Shown piece by piece: positions 5,750 to 16,331 of a stretch of DNA of 20,832 bases. This DNA comes from a virus: positions 1-20,832 of the IMG/VR virus record IMGVR_UViG_3300021373_002313; one strand, given 5' to 3'. The notes under the pieces are model-generated. The model worked only from the letters and a program-made list of their open reading frames with translations, was not told the origin of the DNA and made no database searches. The translations under genes and the position numbers were made by a program. Numbering within the stretch: the first letter of the stretch is position 1; each line of letters opens with the position of its first letter.

Positions 5750-6529
5750 ATGGCATTTAATATAAGCGAATTTAAAACTCAAATTGAGCGTTATGGTGGT
5801 CCTGCACGTACGAACCTTTTTGATGTACAATTATTAACACTTCCAAAGAATATGCCTGTTAACGCAAATTATGATTATCAAAGAGGTGTTAATTTATTTT
5901 GTACTAAAATGTCAATGCCTGGTGTTGCTTTTAATACAGCAGATGCAAATTATGTAGGTCAGCTTGGAAAGAAATATCCAACCGTTATGCAAAATCCTGG
6001 ACCTATCACAGCAACGTTTCTTGTAGATTCAGATCATAATTTATTATCGTTCTTTCATTTATGGTCAAGACAAATAGTTAACTATACGAAAGGTAATAAA
6101 CCCTTTGCTGAATTGAGTGGCAAGCTTCCACATGAAGTTGGGTTTAAAGATGATTATGCATGTGATATGATAGTGAAACATTATACAACAGATAGTTTCC
6201 CTAATTCGTATTATGAAGCAAAATTAATTAGATGCTATCCTACATCAATATCTTCACTTGATATGTCGTGGGATGGTTCAAATACTTTCCTTACATTGGA
6301 TGTTCAATTTCAATTAGAGGATATTGTATTTAGTTCAGACAATACATTAAAAACAAATAATCGTTCACGAAGAGGTGGAGGGTTATTGGATATTCTTGGA
6401 GATATCGCAGGGTTTGCCGATACTGTAAGAGGAACAATTAAAGCAGGTAAACCTACAAGCATTCAAGATGCTATCAATAGATTAGATAGATTAGGGAATG
6501 CGATTGATAACATTAATGACAATATTTAA
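5750..6529 (+). CDS. gp54-like baseplate tail-tube initiator
   Basis: 259 residues (T4 gp54 is 320). It has the tail-tube-protein fold pattern: N-terminal FKTQIERYGGPARTNLFDVQL, then LFCTKMSMPGVAF, then PITATFLVDSDHNLLSFFHLW, and a closing strand pair CYPTSISSLDMSWDGSNT followed by TLDVQFQLEDIVF. This series is shared by gp54 and gp19; the length and the position next to hub genes favour gp54. In T4 it sits on gp48 and templates tube growth. Residues 205-259 form a Gly/Arg-rich linker and a short amphipathic tail. AGAGGAT precedes the ATG, 3 nt after the previous stop. Confidence 0.75.
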   Translation: MAFNISEFKTQIERYGGPARTNLFDVQLLTLPKNMPVNANYDYQRGVNLFCTKMSMPGVAFNTADANYVGQLGKKYPTVMQNPGPITATFLVDSDHNLLSFFHLWSRQIVNYTKGNKPFAELSGKLPHEVGFKDDYACDMIVKHYTTDSFPNSYYEAKLIRCYPTSISSLDMSWDGSNTFLTLDVQFQLEDIVFSSDNTLKTNNRSRRGGGLLDILGDIAGFADTVRGTIKAGKPTSIQDAINRLDRLGNAIDNINDNI

Positions 6530-6546
6530 ATTATTAGGAGTATATA

Positions 6547-7248
6547 ATGGCATTACCAAAAATTGATTTACCAATCTCGGAAATTATTTTACCGAGCAAT
6601 GGTGAAAAGGTAAAATACAGACCTTTTTCTGTAGCAGAAGAAAAAGTATTATTAGTTGCTCAAGAGAGCGGTGACGCAGAACAAGAAGTTTTGGCAATGA
6701 AACAGATTATTAATAACTGTTTGATTGATAAAGATGTTGAGGAGCTTGCATTATTTGATTTTGAATATGTCTACTTAACATTAAGATCCAAATCAGTTGA
6801 TAACGTAGCACAATTTGTTATTACTGACCCGGACACAAAAGAAAAGGTTGAATTAGAATTAGATTTACAAGAAATTGATTTTGTAAGAGATGAAAGGCAT
6901 ACAAAAGAAATAAAAGTTAATGATGAATATACATTAATTTTAAAGTATCCAACAATTAACGAATTCATCAAAATTATTGGAATGGATAATGAAGATCCTT
7001 TAGTGAATTACTTTATGATGGTGTCTTGTTTAGATACGTTGGCATCGGAAGATGAAGTACATTATTTTAAAGATTATAGTGATAAGGAAGTTGAAGAGTT
7101 TATGGATGGTCTCACAGGAGAAGTAGTTCAACAAGTAACTACGTTCTTTGAGACAATGCCTAAATTAAGAAAAGAGATACATTACGAAAATAAAGAAGGT
7201 AAAAAACAAACGTTCGTTGTAGAGGGAACGCGTAGTTTTTTTATCTAA
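6547..7248 (+). CDS. gp26-like baseplate hub assembly protein / tail assembly chaperone (zero-frame product)
   Basis: 233 residues; T4 gp26 is 208. The start MALPKIDLPISEIILPSNGEKVKYRPFSVAEEK is typical of T4-type gp26 proteins (conserved I.LPS.G..V..RPF...EEK). The body is acidic, with an FDFEYVYLTLRSKSV segment and a helical C-terminal half ending RSFFI. TAGGAG gives a good ribosome binding site. The last codons contain T TTT TTT in the correct phase for -1 slippage, followed 6 nt later by a hairpin. A shift would replace the final Ile with 58 further residues, giving a 290-residue product. The next full gene is the tape measure, where lambda-type phages place their frameshifting chaperone genes. 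Confidence 0.8.
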   Translation: MALPKIDLPISEIILPSNGEKVKYRPFSVAEEKVLLVAQESGDAEQEVLAMKQIINNCLIDKDVEELALFDFEYVYLTLRSKSVDNVAQFVITDPDTKEKVELELDLQEIDFVRDERHTKEIKVNDEYTLILKYPTINEFIKIIGMDNEDPLVNYFMMVSCLDTLASEDEVHYFKDYSDKEVEEFMDGLTGEVVQQVTTFFETMPKLRKEIHYENKEGKKQTFVVEGTRSFFI

Positions 7249-7272
7249 GCCTTAGTCATATTACGCTAAGGC
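7236..7272 (+). promoter_or_regulatory. programmed -1 ribosomal frameshift signal
   Basis: Slippery heptamer T TTT TTT at 7236-7242, phased so that both TTT codons of the zero frame can re-pair after a -1 slip. A 6-nt spacer (7243-7248) contains the zero-frame stop TAA. Then comes a perfect stem GCCTTAG (7249-7255) / CTAAGGC (7266-7272), extendable by one T-G pair, with an 8-10 nt loop. All three parts match the usual -1 frameshift layout. The -1 frame is open from here to 7418. Function is inferred from this layout. Confidence 0.7.
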
Positions 7273-7283
7273 ATTATTACAAA

Positions 7284-7418
7284 ATGTTATTCTCTATGGC
7301 ACAGCACCATAAATGGTCCATTGCTGAAATGGAAGCAATGTTGCCGTATGAAAGAGATTTATATTTTGGAATGCTCGTTGCGTGGATTGAAGAAGAAAAC
7401 GAAAAAAGGAAGAGCTAG
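7284..7418 (+). CDS. 44-residue frame, probably the -1 frameshift extension of the gp26-like protein
   Basis: ATG at 7284 to TAG at 7416-7418 encodes 44 residues containing KWSIAEMEAMLPYERDLYFG, then an acidic/basic helix (AWIEEENEKRKS). The frame is open upstream with no stop back through 7242, adding 14 residues (YLSLSHITLRHYYK) that join seamlessly to the gp26-like frame by a -1 shift. Independent translation is possible from AAGG (7268-7271), but the 12-nt spacing is long and the hairpin's 3' arm covers it. A tryptophan- and acid-rich short helical tail of this kind resembles C-terminal extensions of tail assembly chaperones (GT, P2 E'). It lies 2 nt before the tape measure ATG. Confidence 0.6.
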   Translation: MLFSMAQHHKWSIAEMEAMLPYERDLYFGMLVAWIEEENEKRKS

Positions 7419-7420
7419 AA

Positions 7421-9268
7421 ATGGCAGAACAGAAGAACAATACATTGAGTCCTGAAACACAAGCAATTGTAGACCGCTTAGTGGCAGAAGGTAAATTGCT
7501 CCGACAAGATGGGACCAACTCAATTAAGTCAGTAAAGGAAACTTTATTGGATAAGTTCGCGCCTGCATTTGAAGCAATATCTGTTAATACCGAACAAACT
7601 GCTAAAGCTTTAGGTACAATGGAAACGTACTTTACAGGAAATACCGAACAGCTTGATGGTCTTCAAGCAGAAATTTCCAAAATGAATGAAACTGATAAGG
7701 CGGCTCTTGAAGCCAAACTTAAAAAGGATCGTGAAGATGCAAAAAAGGCAAAAGAAGATGCACGTGAAGGTGGAATGATTGACGGGTTTAAAGATATAGT
7801 AAAGAATCTTAAAACTGGCTTTAATGGAATGTCATCAAAGTTATCAGATATATCAAAACCTGGTAACTTACTTAAAATAGGTAAGTGGGCATTACTTTTA
7901 CCAATTATCGGTGGACTTGTAAAAGGAACCATTGAAGGATTCATGCCTGTATTTAGTTCGTTTATAAAATTTGTTGGTGAACATCCGTGGGCAACTTTAG
8001 GTACCGCACTAGTAGCATTCGCAGGTATTAAGTGGGCAACAATGTACGCTTCAATGATGATGGCTGCAAAAGTTATGGGTGTAAAGAATACTGGTGGTGG
8101 ACCAATGGTTATGGGAGGTCCTGATGGTCCTGATGGCAAGGATGGTAAAAAATCAAAAAATCCACTTAAAGGTTTAAGAGGCAAAATAGCTGGATTACTT
8201 AAAGGCGGAGTTGGTAAAGGATTAGCTTTATCTGTTATTGCTGGAGGAGGTCTATTACTTTTAGGTAATAGCGGTGATGAAGACGATGTTGATTTAGAAG
8301 CAGAGATGGAAGCAATCAACAGAGAGGTTGGTAAAAAAGAACAAGCAGCTAAAGATGAAATGCTTTTAAAATATGAAAATGAAAGAAGTGGTCTTGGTAC
8401 TATTATAACAAGTACATTAACAGGAGCGGCAGTAGGGTCAATTGGAATGTTGCCTGGAGCAATATTTGGAGCAGTGACTGGATTCTTTACAGGAGTAGGA
8501 CAAGTTGCTTACGAAAAGTTCAACGATATTAAACATGATCTTGATGAACTTCCTAACGCCTTAGAACAAGAATTAAAAAATGAAGAATACAATCAATTTA
8601 ATAGAAATCAAAGAGGACGCTCTACAGGTAAAAAGACCGATGCTGAAATTGAAGATTTAAAATTAAAAACCGATGAAAAGATTAAATCTATTCGTGATGG
8701 TCTTAGAGAACAAATATTTGGTAAAGATGGACAGGGTGGTATTCAAGGCGATTTAGAATCAATGCAAGCCCTTTTAGAAGAAGGTCCTAATGCAGAATTA
8801 ACTAAGACAGGCAGAAGAGGCAGAAAGGTAACAGTTGCTGCATACGAGTTTGGCGGAAAGAAATATACAGAAGAAGAATACAAGAAGTTAATTGAAGACC
8901 AAGAAAGAGAAAGAATATTAAGAGAAAAGCAACTCAAAGCAACGGAAAGAGTATTAGAATTAAGAGGTGTCGAAGCGGAGAAGATTGAAGCAGTTAATGA
9001 ATCAACAGAAAAACTTGCTCTTGCCGAAGATGATGCTGCAGAACAAGCCAAAAAGATTAATCCTCAAACATCTGATAGAGAAAGAAAGCAAAGTGTTGCC
9101 TCAGGTGGATTTGCATTGAATGTTACGAACAACTATTACAATAAAGGTGGTGATACTGTAGTCAACCAAAAATCTGATAACAGAGTTGCTTCAAATAAAA
9201 ACACTGGTATTGTAATGGGTGGTCCAGGTGGTGGTGTTACTGGTGGTTGGTTACCAAACGGAGCATAA
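7421..9268 (+). CDS. tail tape measure protein (gp29-like)
   Basis: 615 residues; T4 gp29 is 590. Residues 1-120 are charged and helical with a coiled-coil-like KKDREDAKKAKEDA stretch. Three hydrophobic segments follow: about 154-210 (WALLLPIIGGLVKG, then an ATLGTALVAFAGI segment), 264-284 (VGKGLALSVIAGGGLLLLG) and 325-362 (a Gly/Ala-rich TGAAVGSIGMLPGAIFGAV type). A long charged helical region spans 370-540. The C-terminus is Asn/Gly-rich. Hydrophobic glycine-rich stretches inside a helical protein are typical of tape measures, which span the tube, set tail length and may enter the membrane during injection. AAGGAAGAG precedes the ATG. It is the last gene of the rightward operon. Confidence 0.75.
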   Translation: MAEQKNNTLSPETQAIVDRLVAEGKLLRQDGTNSIKSVKETLLDKFAPAFEAISVNTEQTAKALGTMETYFTGNTEQLDGLQAEISKMNETDKAALEAKLKKDREDAKKAKEDAREGGMIDGFKDIVKNLKTGFNGMSSKLSDISKPGNLLKIGKWALLLPIIGGLVKGTIEGFMPVFSSFIKFVGEHPWATLGTALVAFAGIKWATMYASMMMAAKVMGVKNTGGGPMVMGGPDGPDGKDGKKSKNPLKGLRGKIAGLLKGGVGKGLALSVIAGGGLLLLGNSGDEDDVDLEAEMEAINREVGKKEQAAKDEMLLKYENERSGLGTIITSTLTGAAVGSIGMLPGAIFGAVTGFFTGVGQVAYEKFNDIKHDLDELPNALEQELKNEEYNQFNRNQRGRSTGKKTDAEIEDLKLKTDEKIKSIRDGLREQIFGKDGQGGIQGDLESMQALLEEGPNAELTKTGRRGRKVTVAAYEFGGKKYTEEEYKKLIEDQERERILREKQLKATERVLELRGVEAEKIEAVNESTEKLALAEDDAAEQAKKINPQTSDRERKQSVASGGFALNVTNNYYNKGGDTVVNQKSDNRVASNKNTGIVMGGPGGGVTGGWLPNGA

Positions 9269-11363: not shown

Positions 11364-11523
11364 CAAGTACCTCCTGAAGCTCTTTTGCTAATATGTCAAA
11401 GTCTTTACCACAAGATTCACACAAAGTAACTTTATGCTTACCTTCCGAAGTATTCATTTCAACAGTATATGCTTTCTTTTTTGTCGTTGTTGTATTACAG
11501 TTAAAACATCTTGTCTTTAACAT
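11341..11523 (-). CDS. small zinc-ribbon protein embedded in the clamp-loader operon
   Basis: 60 residues. Two CxxC knuckles, C6-F-N-C9 and C35-E-S-C38, separated by 25 residues, suggest one structural zinc site. The C-terminus is an acidic helix (DILAKELQEVLDE). The ATG overlaps the gp44 stop (TAATG), and the 3' end overlaps gp62 by 23 nt, so its translation is tied to both clamp-loader subunits. I know no T4 equivalent between genes 44 and 62. An accessory factor of the loader or a small transcription-linked zinc protein are possibilities; function is unknown. Confidence 0.75.
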   Translation of the reverse strand: MLKTRCFNCNTTTTKKKAYTVEMNTSEGKHKVTLCESCGKDFDILAKELQEVLDERPNTI

Positions 11524-12476
11524 TATACATACTCACATTCAATCATAACCTCAGTTAAGAATGCAACCATATTAATTTCTTGGTCAGCAACTAAACCTGA
11601 CTTGTACATATAATCAGCTAATGTAACTATAAATCCAGCTTGTGATTGTAAAGTTACCTTTTCTGAACACATATCGTAGATACGACGAAACATTTCATTC
11701 ATATCTTGGTCAGAATTCTTTGCTACCCATTTACGCATATCGGTAAATTGTTTACCTTTTAATAAACGAAATAGGTCATCAATAGATTCTTGTTTCAGAT
11801 TAACAAAGATACCTTCGTCAATTTTACCTGAAGCTGCATATGATTGTAGTTCAGTTAATACACGACGGAAATCAGGGAAGTGTTTTTCAATTACTTTAGC
11901 AACTACCTTAGGATCATATTGAACTTCTTCTCGGTCAAGAATTGCCTTAACACGTTTGAAGAATGCCATTGCCATCATTGGACGATCTTCGGTATCAATT
12001 GAAAAGTCAACTTCAGATAGTCTTGAACGTAATGGACTGATAATACGATTCTTGAAATTACAAGTAAAGATAAATCCACAGTTAGAGGAATATTCTTCAA
12101 TAAAGTTACGAAGAGCAGGCTGAACATTTGCTGCGTTCAGATAATCTGCTTCATCAAAAATTACATACTTACGACCTGTACCTGTTAGAGAAACAGCAGA
12201 TGCGAAAGTAGAGATATCGTATCGGAGAGTATCAATATTAACATTAAGAGAACCATTCTTTACGATATAATCGCAACCAAGTTCTTCAAGCATTGCCTTT
12301 GCGATTGTAGTTTTACCTACACCAGGACCGCCTGTTAATAATAGATTTGGAACACTGCCGTCTGATACGAACTTACGGAATGTTTCTTTTGTCTTATCAG
12401 GTAGAATAGTATCAGCAACTACTTGCGGACGATATTTCTCAACCCATAAGACTTCGTTTGATTTTGCATCAATCAT
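11523..12476 (-). CDS. 44: gp44 sliding-clamp loader ATPase
   Basis: 317 residues against 319 in T4. AAA+ features in order: Walker A GGPGVGKTT (49-57), Walker B VIFDEAD (105-111), sensor 1 TCN (138-140) and the S-R arginine-finger region (R152 in PLRSRLS), then the C-terminal collar domain. Four gp44 with one gp62 open the gp45 clamp using ATP. The start ATG lies in AATTATGATTG, close to the RegA target of T4 gene 44. A 7-codon frame (12492-12469) overlaps the start. A terminator-like hairpin precedes the gene, so transcription from gp45 may be attenuated here. Confidence 0.95.
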   Translation of the reverse strand: MIDAKSNEVLWVEKYRPQVVADTILPDKTKETFRKFVSDGSVPNLLLTGGPGVGKTTIAKAMLEELGCDYIVKNGSLNVNIDTLRYDISTFASAVSLTGTGRKYVIFDEADYLNAANVQPALRNFIEEYSSNCGFIFTCNFKNRIISPLRSRLSEVDFSIDTEDRPMMAMAFFKRVKAILDREEVQYDPKVVAKVIEKHFPDFRRVLTELQSYAASGKIDEGIFVNLKQESIDDLFRLLKGKQFTDMRKWVAKNSDQDMNEMFRRIYDMCSEKVTLQSQAGFIVTLADYMYKSGLVADQEINMVAFLTEVMIECEYV

Positions 12477-12508
12477 AATTCACCATAAACATAATATAAA
12501 AATTTGAG

Positions 12509-12537
12509 AAAAAGTTGAGGGCGTTTGACCACCCTCA
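12509..12537 (-). terminator. probable intrinsic terminator or attenuator upstream of gp44
   Basis: Minus strand stem TGAGGG / CCCTCA (6 bp) with a 10-nt loop, followed by AC and TTTTT. It lies between the 95-residue gene and gp44. The short stem and modest T run suggest partial termination, which would lower gp44 relative to the clamp. Confidence 0.55.
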
Positions 12538-12560
12538 CTTCTCGAGAAATGAGTTATTGA

Positions 12561-12848
12561 TTACTCAACAACTTTATCAGCTAAAGGAGCACCTTCAGTT
12601 ACTGATGTATCAACATTGGCATCCTGTTCACCAAGACTTGCGTCTTGCTGAGGTCCTTTCTGTCTTAAAAATGCTTCGATTTTATTTCTTAGCATTCCTA
12701 TTCCAGCAAGTTCCTGTCCTTGGAATCCACCACGCTGAGAGACTACGTCAATAATCTGCAACACAGTTGATAGGTCTCCAAGATTGATAACCACTTCTTG
12801 TTCTTGGCCTTGTTGTTGACCAAAGTTACCTTGTACTGGTTCATTCAT
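12561..12848 (-). CDS. small acidic Gln-rich protein between gp45 and gp44, unknown function
   Basis: 95 residues, ATG at 12848 preceded by AAAGGTG. The N-terminus is Gln-rich (GNFGQQQGQEQE). The centre VVINLGDLSTVLQIIDVVSQ, then GMLRNKIEAFLRQKG, looks like two amphipathic helices, and the C-terminus is acidic and disordered. There is no catalytic motif, cysteine or membrane segment. It starts 4 nt after the gp45 stop and ends just before a terminator hairpin, so it is cotranscribed with the clamp. T4 has no gene here. A clamp-associated or DNA-replication accessory role is a guess from position only. Confidence 0.6.
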   Translation of the reverse strand: MNEPVQGNFGQQQGQEQEVVINLGDLSTVLQIIDVVSQRGGFQGQELAGIGMLRNKIEAFLRQKGPQQDASLGEQDANVDTSVTEGAPLADKVVE

Positions 12849-12852
12849 AATT

Positions 12853-13515
12853 TCACCTTTTATTATAAGTCGACTTTGAATCTATAGCCACATAATATGT
12901 GACACCTTGACCTTTAAATTCTGAGATACCTTTTGAACAAAGCGTAACCTCATAATCCAAAGGCATGAGTTTTAAATTATCAGTTTTAATAATAATTTTA
13001 AACTCGTCGGCAGTATCCCCGATTTCAACGCCAAAGTCATCTGCGCCTTCGTTCGTACTGTCGATTGCTTTCAGATAGCATTTGCCGCCTTCGCCTACAA
13101 ACGCAATCTCTGAAAATTGTAATACCCCTGCTGCTTTGAGCACTGAAGTTAATTCATCATTAGATACATTAACTACAACATCTGCTGAAGGAATAGTAAT
13201 ATCCTTTTCAGGTGGTGTATGTATCATTGATAAATCTGCATAGACATATTTCGTTCTACGCTTACCTTCCGAGATAATAAAGTATTTATCAAAAAACTCT
13301 ACATCTGGGTCATTATATAAAGACAAAATTGATAAAAATCTTGAAAGATCGTATACACATGCATCTGATGGAATTTCATCAGGAATGTCTGCGATAGCAA
13401 TTAATGTCTTCTCCGGAGTGATAGTCTTAAGAACATTACCTTCTTTCATCAAGATTGACTTGTTGATTTGAGTAAAGCTTTTTAAGACCGTCAAAGTTTC
13501 GTTAGAAAATTTCAT
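12853..13515 (-). CDS. 45: gp45 sliding clamp
   Basis: 220 residues against 228 in T4. It starts MKFSNETLTVLKSFTQINKSILMKEG, typical of gp45, and has the two-domain beta-rich pattern of a trimeric clamp (PDVEFFDKYFIISEGKRR in domain one; DEFKIIIKTDNLKLMPLDYEVTLC in domain two). The clamp tethers the gp43 polymerase and, in T4, also activates late promoters with gp33 and gp55, consistent with the TATAAATA boxes here. The start lies in TATATTATGAAA with GGAG upstream, a possible RegA target. It is driven by its own perfect sigma-70 promoter. Confidence 0.95.
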   Translation of the reverse strand: MKFSNETLTVLKSFTQINKSILMKEGNVLKTITPEKTLIAIADIPDEIPSDACVYDLSRFLSILSLYNDPDVEFFDKYFIISEGKRRTKYVYADLSMIHTPPEKDITIPSADVVVNVSNDELTSVLKAAGVLQFSEIAFVGEGGKCYLKAIDSTNEGADDFGVEIGDTADEFKIIIKTDNLKLMPLDYEVTLCSKGISEFKGQGVTYYVAIDSKSTYNKR

Positions 13516-15107: not shown

Positions 15108-16331
15108 TTATGACATAAATTCTTCAAGAGATGGAGTTGTATCTTTTCCGTTAGGGTCAAACTCCATTAATTGTTTATGATTGTTTTGTCTTAAATAAGT
15201 GGTATCAGATAATGTTAGTTCGCCTCTTAAAAATTTACCAATCTCAGAATGTAAATCTCTTGATGTAGGTACAGGAACATTTTGAGCAATATGATTTACT
15301 TTAGGCAATCCACCTAATAGTTCAAAGTCTTCTGGGAATCCCATCATATGTAGAGCTTCACGAATAGTTAATGACCTATCTTCAGTTGGGTGAATCGTAT
15401 CAACCATATTACGACCAATGACTGCATTCATATAATCACCAAAGACATGTACTGAACCATCCCATACACCTAATCCATCAGCATACTTTTTAATTGCGTG
15501 GTCAGAATACTTAATACCTTTTTCATGTCCTGTCTTATGGAACCATTCGTTTGCTTCTTTCATCCAACCTTTTTTGTTAACATAATTGAGAGTTGTCTTT
15601 ACATCTTCTTCTAACATAATCTCTCTTACATCACGGTTTGTTTTTGTTTTAATAAATGTATAGTAAGGTTCTTCAGGTACATTCTTATTAATAATCAAAT
15701 CGTGTTGTAATGCATCATCAGGAATTTCTTTAAGATATTCGGCAAATGATTTACGATCACGGTTATACCAGTTTAATACAGGAGAAGTACTTGACTTCCA
15801 ACCAATCGCAAACGTTCTATCTCGTCCCTGAGGAACTCCATGATATCTCGTTGAGGTTTTATACAGAGATAAAGAATAACCTCTCTCAGCACAAATTTCA
15901 TACAGTCTATTTGCGACTGGACGACCTTTGTTTGTATATAGTGCAGGAGCGTTCTCAACAATAACAACCTTTGCTCCTAAAACATCAATACCATCTTGAA
16001 AGACCTGATACATAAATTCATTCTTTGCACAACCTGCACCTTTACTCTCTGCGGTCGTACCTGTATTTAATTGAGATAAAGCAGCACAAGGTGGAGTACC
16101 TGATACTACATCTACCTTTTTAATTTTAGGATTGTCTGAATCCAATAATACATAAGGAACATCTCTGCCTTTCGTATTCTGTTGATAATTGACATAATGT
16201 GAATCGTTTGCTTCAAACCCACCATAGGAATAAATTGCTTCAGGTGGTTTACCGAAAGCTTTCTCCGCTCCTAGCATTTGTCCACCAATCAGTGGAATTA
16301 GTGGTGCCCATGTTATTTCTTTTTTACTCAT
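15108..16331 (-). CDS. C5-cytosine DNA methyltransferase
   Basis: 407 residues with nearly all motifs of the family: motif I region PLIPLIGGQMLGAEKAF (10-26), acidic motif II at E40, catalytic PPC (80-82) in VVSGTPPCAALSQ, VENAP (125-129), QGRDR (168-172), target-recognition region about 180-315, motif IX RSLTIREALHMMGFP (319-333) and motif X QNVPVP (350-355). It transfers methyl from S-adenosylmethionine to C5 of cytosine. Motif I is unusual: the common FAGIGG is IPLIGG, losing the first glycine. The catalytic cysteine C82 is kept. The ATG overlaps the stop of the GT-B gene by 4 nt, suggesting a shared task. It could instead be a solitary methylase against host restriction. Confidence 0.9.
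   Translation of the reverse strand: MSKKEITWAPLIPLIGGQMLGAEKAFGKPPEAIYSYGGFEANDSHYVNYQQNTKGRDVPYVLLDSDNPKIKKVDVVSGTPPCAALSQLNTGTTAESKGAGCAKNEFMYQVFQDGIDVLGAKVVIVENAPALYTNKGRPVANRLYEICAERGYSLSLYKTSTRYHGVPQGRDRTFAIGWKSSTSPVLNWYNRDRKSFAEYLKEIPDDALQHDLIINKNVPEEPYYTFIKTKTNRDVREIMLEEDVKTTLNYVNKKGWMKEANEWFHKTGHEKGIKYSDHAIKKYADGLGVWDGSVHVFGDYMNAVIGRNMVDTIHPTEDRSLTIREALHMMGFPEDFELLGGLPKVNHIAQNVPVPTSRDLHSEIGKFLRGELTLSDTTYLRQNNHKQLMEFDPNGKDTTPSLEEFMS

Follow-up and report, generated by a model that had tools for sequence, protein, structure and literature searches.

Does the gp26-like gene of this T4-like phage end where its reading frame ends, or do some ribosomes slip back one base and read on into a second domain? 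The window, by which we mean the whole 20,832-nucleotide stretch of viral DNA analyzed here, carries a gp26 gene whose last codons, AGT TTT TTT ATC TAA, set a run of seven T in the X XXY YYZ phase. An earlier note on this DNA had proposed a programmed -1 frameshift at this site, and the positions that it gave for the ORF, heptamer, spacer, hairpin and -1 frame proved exact to the base when rechecked (Table 1). A slip would join 232 zero-frame residues to 58 residues of the -1 frame in a product of 290 residues. Genes of the G/GT type are organized in this way: a slippery heptamer stands in phase close to the 3' end of a short ORF, and the -1 frame continues open into a second domain downstream.

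Table 1. Features of the gp26 region, numbered from the first letter of the window
Feature	Position	Strand	Details and basis
Tail tube-like gene upstream of gp26	5750..6529	+	phrog_45 (E 1.3e-39), PF23849 (E 5.2e-08)
gp26-like short tail-assembly chaperone, zero frame, 233 codons	6547..7248	+	TAA at 7246-7248; PF12322, phrog_150, AlphaFold model
Shine-Dalgarno-like AGAGGGA, candidate upstream stimulator	7221..7227	+	8 nt from its end to the heptamer; sequence and codon bias
Slippery heptamer T TTT TTT	7236..7242	+	In phase; conserved among relatives
Spacer ATCTAA containing the zero-frame stop, 6 nt	7243..7248	+	Sequence
Downstream hairpin, candidate stimulator	7249..7272	+	Stem 7249-7255/7266-7272; fold z -3.6, pairing in near clade
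-1 frame extension, gp51 C-terminal domain of the long chaperone	7242..7418	+	58 codons 7242-7415, stop TAG 7416-7418; phrog_634
Next ORF, 615 residues, presumed tape measure from position	7421..9268	+	No family match

Products of the two frames and their setting

The zero-frame protein belongs to PF12322 (T4_baseplate, IPR024364; E 4.1e-50, 170.9 bits against a curated cut-off of 24.5) and to phrog_150 (E 3.4e-56). The -1 frame, which the earlier note had left unnamed, is gp51, residues 2-57 of its 58 matching phrog_634, the "baseplate hub assembly catalyst" family, with an E-value of 2.7e-20. The extension aligns with 61 relatives and with the C terminus of T4 gp51, and in the alignment with the relatives its first 20 residues are among the best conserved. 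The window is AT-rich and T runs are common in it, as would suit an ordinary T run standing by chance before a fortuitously open frame, but a frame that codes for a conserved family argues against such a coincidence.

The AlphaFold model of gp26 has a pLDDT of 91.7. Its best structural matches, the top three VIA entries, are the known tail-assembly chaperones 3fgx (Z 7.7), HK97 2ob9 (Z 7.3) and YqbN 3klu (Z 6.9), the next entry scoring 4.7; the match is limited to residues 1-93, the N-terminal third of gp26, and Z values below 8 can mean a common arrangement. On the HK97 tail assembly chaperone gp13 (2ob9), residues 1-84 of predicted gp26 superpose over 83 residues; gp13 has 107 residues, whereas gp26 carries an extra C-terminal part of about 140. 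The same structure ranked first in a Foldseek search with the model, at a weak E of 0.2. A PDB sequence search with the gp26 alignment gave no relevant match, and a search of NCBIfam gave no match. The predicted fold supports descent from tail assembly chaperones (TACs) without proving it. The N-terminal domain of gp26 also superposes on PDB 5ir0, ORF19 of a PICI-like element of V. cholerae (Z 4.7), a likeness that is possibly due to chance or to a chaperone mimic of the satellite element.

In the 20.8-kb record, gp26 follows the tail tube-like gene, and profile searches place gp2-, gp4-, gp53- and gp48-like genes close by. The earlier note had put gp26 directly upstream of the tape measure gene. 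An ORF does adjoin it, which we presume from its position to be the tape measure gene; neither Pfam nor PHROGs gave this ORF a convincing match, and phage records gave it none at E 0.001. Comparison with the tape measures of phages Cr30 and phiM12 found no similarity. In both of these phages a nearby downstream gene carries a tape measure-like annotation. Directly downstream of the tail block, the minus strand encodes a Redoxin/AhpC-TSA-like protein (PF08534, 9350-9889) and an Hsp20 small heat shock protein (PF00011, 9914-10417), and on the same strand there follow T4-type replication genes (11523-13515; a clamp loader with Gp44 lid and AAA domains, and the gp45 sliding clamp) and a C-5 cytosine DNA methylase (PF00145, E 1.9e-23; 15108-16331).

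Conservation of the slip site and of the -1 frame

Loci of relatives were located with peptide patterns within gp26, independently of the slip site. Among 224 sequences, 211 gp26 genes lie in loci with one PF12322-type match. A compatible in-phase heptamer of some kind is present in 208 of these 211 genes. Clustering of the single-gene set at 80% left 105 non-redundant relatives, 103 of which have T TTT TTN in phase (last base C in 69, T in 29, A in 3 and G in 2), and in 94 of the 103 the heptamer starts exactly 10 nt before the stop. The slippery sequence of lambda G/GT is different from that of the window. The -1 extension is 52-68 residues long in all complete non-redundant single-gene relatives. 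The 303 other ORFs that reach 150 codons in these loci served as a control, and a single one of them has a compatible heptamer in phase together with a -1 extension of 50 codons or more. From synonymous codon usage one would expect 39 sites with T TTT, against 103 observed in a set of 103 that is conditioned on the site (unconditioned, 103 of 105). The site thus stands far above chance, and this comparison refutes a fortuitous T run, the probability of which is practically nil. An alignment of related phages had been suggested as a check in the earlier note; it gives a heptamer and a -1 frame that are retained and a spacer that drifts, and a programmed -1 frameshift yielding a G/GT-like chaperone pair is, on this comparative evidence, strongly supported.

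The two exceptions, Kuja (CTTTTTC; L044:2200-2250) and TSW001 (ACTTTTC; L042:2200-2280), are distant relatives that both retain the -1 extension. TSW001 has a strong hairpin (aacccctc/gaggggtt) 3' of the stop.

Most database records annotate gp51 as a gene of its own, in the named phages a small one that starts soon after gp26, and by tblastn the gp51 match overlaps the gp26 match, beginning 7 nt before the latter ends, in the records listed in both searches. Coupled re-initiation at a start just 3' of gp26 would yield such a separate protein, with the T run merely encoding Phe-Phe, and an ATG does stand 4-5 codons past the slip point in many relatives (49 of 103); in the window, the -1 frame ATG at 7284-7286 could begin a protein of 44 residues. 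However, ATG is missing from codons 1-15 in 42 of the 103, and in 34 neither codons 1-12 nor the open -1 stretch before them contain ATG, GTG or TTG, although the extension is so well conserved over its first 20 residues. Furthermore, the heptamer is retained beyond the need to encode Phe-Phe and has been lost in T4, whose long copy is read in frame, gp51 holding both parts in one protein. Because 34 of 103 relatives lack a usable start codon close to the conserved first part of the extension, and because of the T4 fusion, we consider a separately initiated gp51 very unlikely.

Candidate stimulators of the slip

Shine-Dalgarno (SD)-like elements occur upstream of some bacterial frameshift sites, as in dnaX. 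Over the SD-like region of the 103 relatives, pairing with the anti-SD has an energy of -6.7 kcal/mol compared with -5.1 kcal/mol in synonymous shuffles (p 3e-10), and GAG makes up 63% of the Glu codons at the SD-like site compared with 29% elsewhere. Judged from this bias, codon choice at the conserved Glu-Gly codons favors an SD-like stretch upstream of the heptamer.

Downstream of the heptamer, the predicted RNA fold of the window forms a perfect 7-bp stem with one additional U-G pair (7256/7265), starting 6 nt past the heptamer, and the local minimum free energy is -11.7 kcal/mol as opposed to -4.5 kcal/mol for shuffled sequences. Across the relatives, the 45-nt downstream segments have a median z of -1.6, compared with -0.25 in gp26 controls (p 5e-7), and 41% of them, against 7% of the controls, have a z below -2. 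Simple stems of 6 bp or more lie in range at 54 of 157 unique sites, compared with 15% in shuffles. This patchy distribution across sites rules out a universal hairpin.

A stem with compensating changes had been another expectation of the earlier note, and it is borne out in part. The stem pairs in 7 of 7 sequences of the window's near clade, and in a 57% identical relative (L060) two stem pairs are changed on both sides, a degree of compensation reached by 12 of 500 shuffles; but the stem is missing from other close relatives, L012 and L055-L059, whose gp26 is 59-63% identical. In the P-SSM2-type stem the covariation is weak, with one compensated cell only, which 37 of 500 shuffles reach. Because L012 and L055-L059 are without the stem, the hairpin would be an optional aid.

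These elements also bear on whether it is the ribosome that slips. A homopolymer T run at the shift site would suit slippage by RNA polymerase, where mRNAs short of one U would give the extension; yet most runs have just six T (TTTTTTC in 69 of 103), which is short for the polymerase, and the SD-like codon bias and the enriched hairpins fit stimulation of a ribosome. We therefore regard polymerase slippage as very unlikely. Very probably, gp26 is the short TAC of this T4-like phage, and a ribosomal slip into gp51 extends it to a long form of 290 residues.

T4 genes 26 and 51 and the probable chaperone pair of the lineage

T4 itself is arranged differently. Its proteins are of the same family as those of the window, but they are encoded by two genes on opposite strands, and gene 26 ends in GAG TTC TTT GAG, without a slip site. 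T4 gp26 consists of PF12322 alone, whereas gp51 has PF12322 at residues 1-201 (E 3.9e-52) and phrog_634 at residues 147-246 (E 1.2e-23); this domain make-up identifies gp26 as the short form and gp51 as the long form, read in frame. T4 gp51 is needed for assembly and is absent from the particle (PMC3004832).

The number of PF12322 genes differs in the same manner between phages. One such gene is found in P-SSM2, phi-ST2, Aeh1, DLP6, phiM12, Astolliot, Kuja and TSW001, the one-gene count for the frameshift type covering five named phage genomes (P-SSM2, phi-ST2, Aeh1, DLP6 and phiM12) and seven contigs; the window has one match in a 20.8-kb fragment. Two are found in the genomes of T4, Melville and Melin, and KPV15 has gp26 and a split gp51. 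The heptamer is absent from the short and the long genes of all intact two-gene representatives, the sole case being AAACCCA in a broken ORF of KPV15. In this Klebsiella phage (L046:578-1916) the PF12322 matches of gp51 lie in separate ORFs, at 125062-125421 and 125424-125666 of the record, and the baseplate hub gene after gp51 is also annotated in two pieces; we propose sequencing errors or decay as the origin of the split genes. The frameshift, T4-short and T4-long sequences form one group each in an unrooted tree. The wording "T4-type" in the earlier note was thus too broad, since T4 and its nearest relatives are without the frameshift at this gene.

Given the chaperone-like predicted fold and the short and in-frame long genes of T4, gp26 and gp26-51 are best read as the G/GT pair of this lineage. 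In lambda, too, a short chaperone is extended in the -1 frame near its 3' end to give a fusion with a separate C-terminal domain, and the lambda frameshift gene adjoins the tape measure gene (PMC5009743), which in the window is presumed from position; the extension of the window is distinguished by its length of only 58 residues. In lambda the tape measure is the partner of G, whether free or within GT, and the tube protein that of T (PMC5009743). In the TAC locus of Vandenendeviridae and Andersonviridae, which are different phage families, there is likewise a -1 extension with a poly-T motif, GTTTTT, of five T; in these phages the extension precedes the tape measure (PMC12846349).

A 2016 review describes the frameshift as conserved in long-tailed phages "except T4" (PMC5009743), and the earlier note had considered it undescribed in the gp26 lineage. 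The latter claim has to be given up on the strength of a study by Vladimirov, Gautam & Davidson (2022, Virology 566:9-15, PMID 34826709), which, according to later papers, identified the tail-assembly chaperones of T4-like phages (PMC10885494, PMC12846349). The study is given as the source for poly-T -1 slippery sequences in their short chaperone genes by a 2025 paper (PMC12846349), and for T4-like phages that do without a frameshift and carry one short gene and one fused long gene by a 2024 paper (PMC10885494). In our literature search, which reached that study only through such citing papers, we found no direct description of the slip site in the present phages. As it is cited there, with a short/long pair, a poly-T -1 signal in some phages and a short plus a fused long gene in others, the frameshifted chaperone described here is a further case of a known type, and the window is a further, uncultured member.

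We infer that the slip takes place, how often it does so, what each stimulator contributes and which partners are bound, as follows. On T TTT TTT a minority of ribosomes would slip by one base into the -1 frame, probably aided by the upstream SD-like stretch and the downstream hairpin, pass the TAA and translate gp51 to give the long chaperone. If lambda G/GT is a guide, the part common to both forms would hold on to the tape measure, and it would be for the gp51 extension to bring in the tail tube protein; with the roles so divided, the slip rate would set the ratio of short to long form. In T4 and its near relatives, the slip would have been replaced by gene 26 for the short form and gene 51 for a short-like domain and the extension in one frame.

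Because of its wide spread, frameshifting would be ancestral by parsimony on the unrooted tree. We lean toward an ancestral T4-superfamily chaperone that was one frameshifted gene with an upstream SD-like element and an optional hairpin, from which a duplication with inversion in the T-even phages gave genes 26 and 51 and moved control of the short to long ratio from slippage to separate expression. Parts of this reading are probably already contained in Vladimirov et al. as later papers cite it; the SD-like bias in codon choice and the changing presence of the hairpin may be new additions. In many records of cyanophages, pelagiphages and other T4-like phages, gp26 and gp51 stand as two "baseplate hub" genes; most likely such a pair is a single gene for a frameshifted chaperone, and since it is recorded as two, the long product is missing from those annotations. 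If the ancestral reading is true, the superfamily would be a natural experiment on why phages retain a frameshift.
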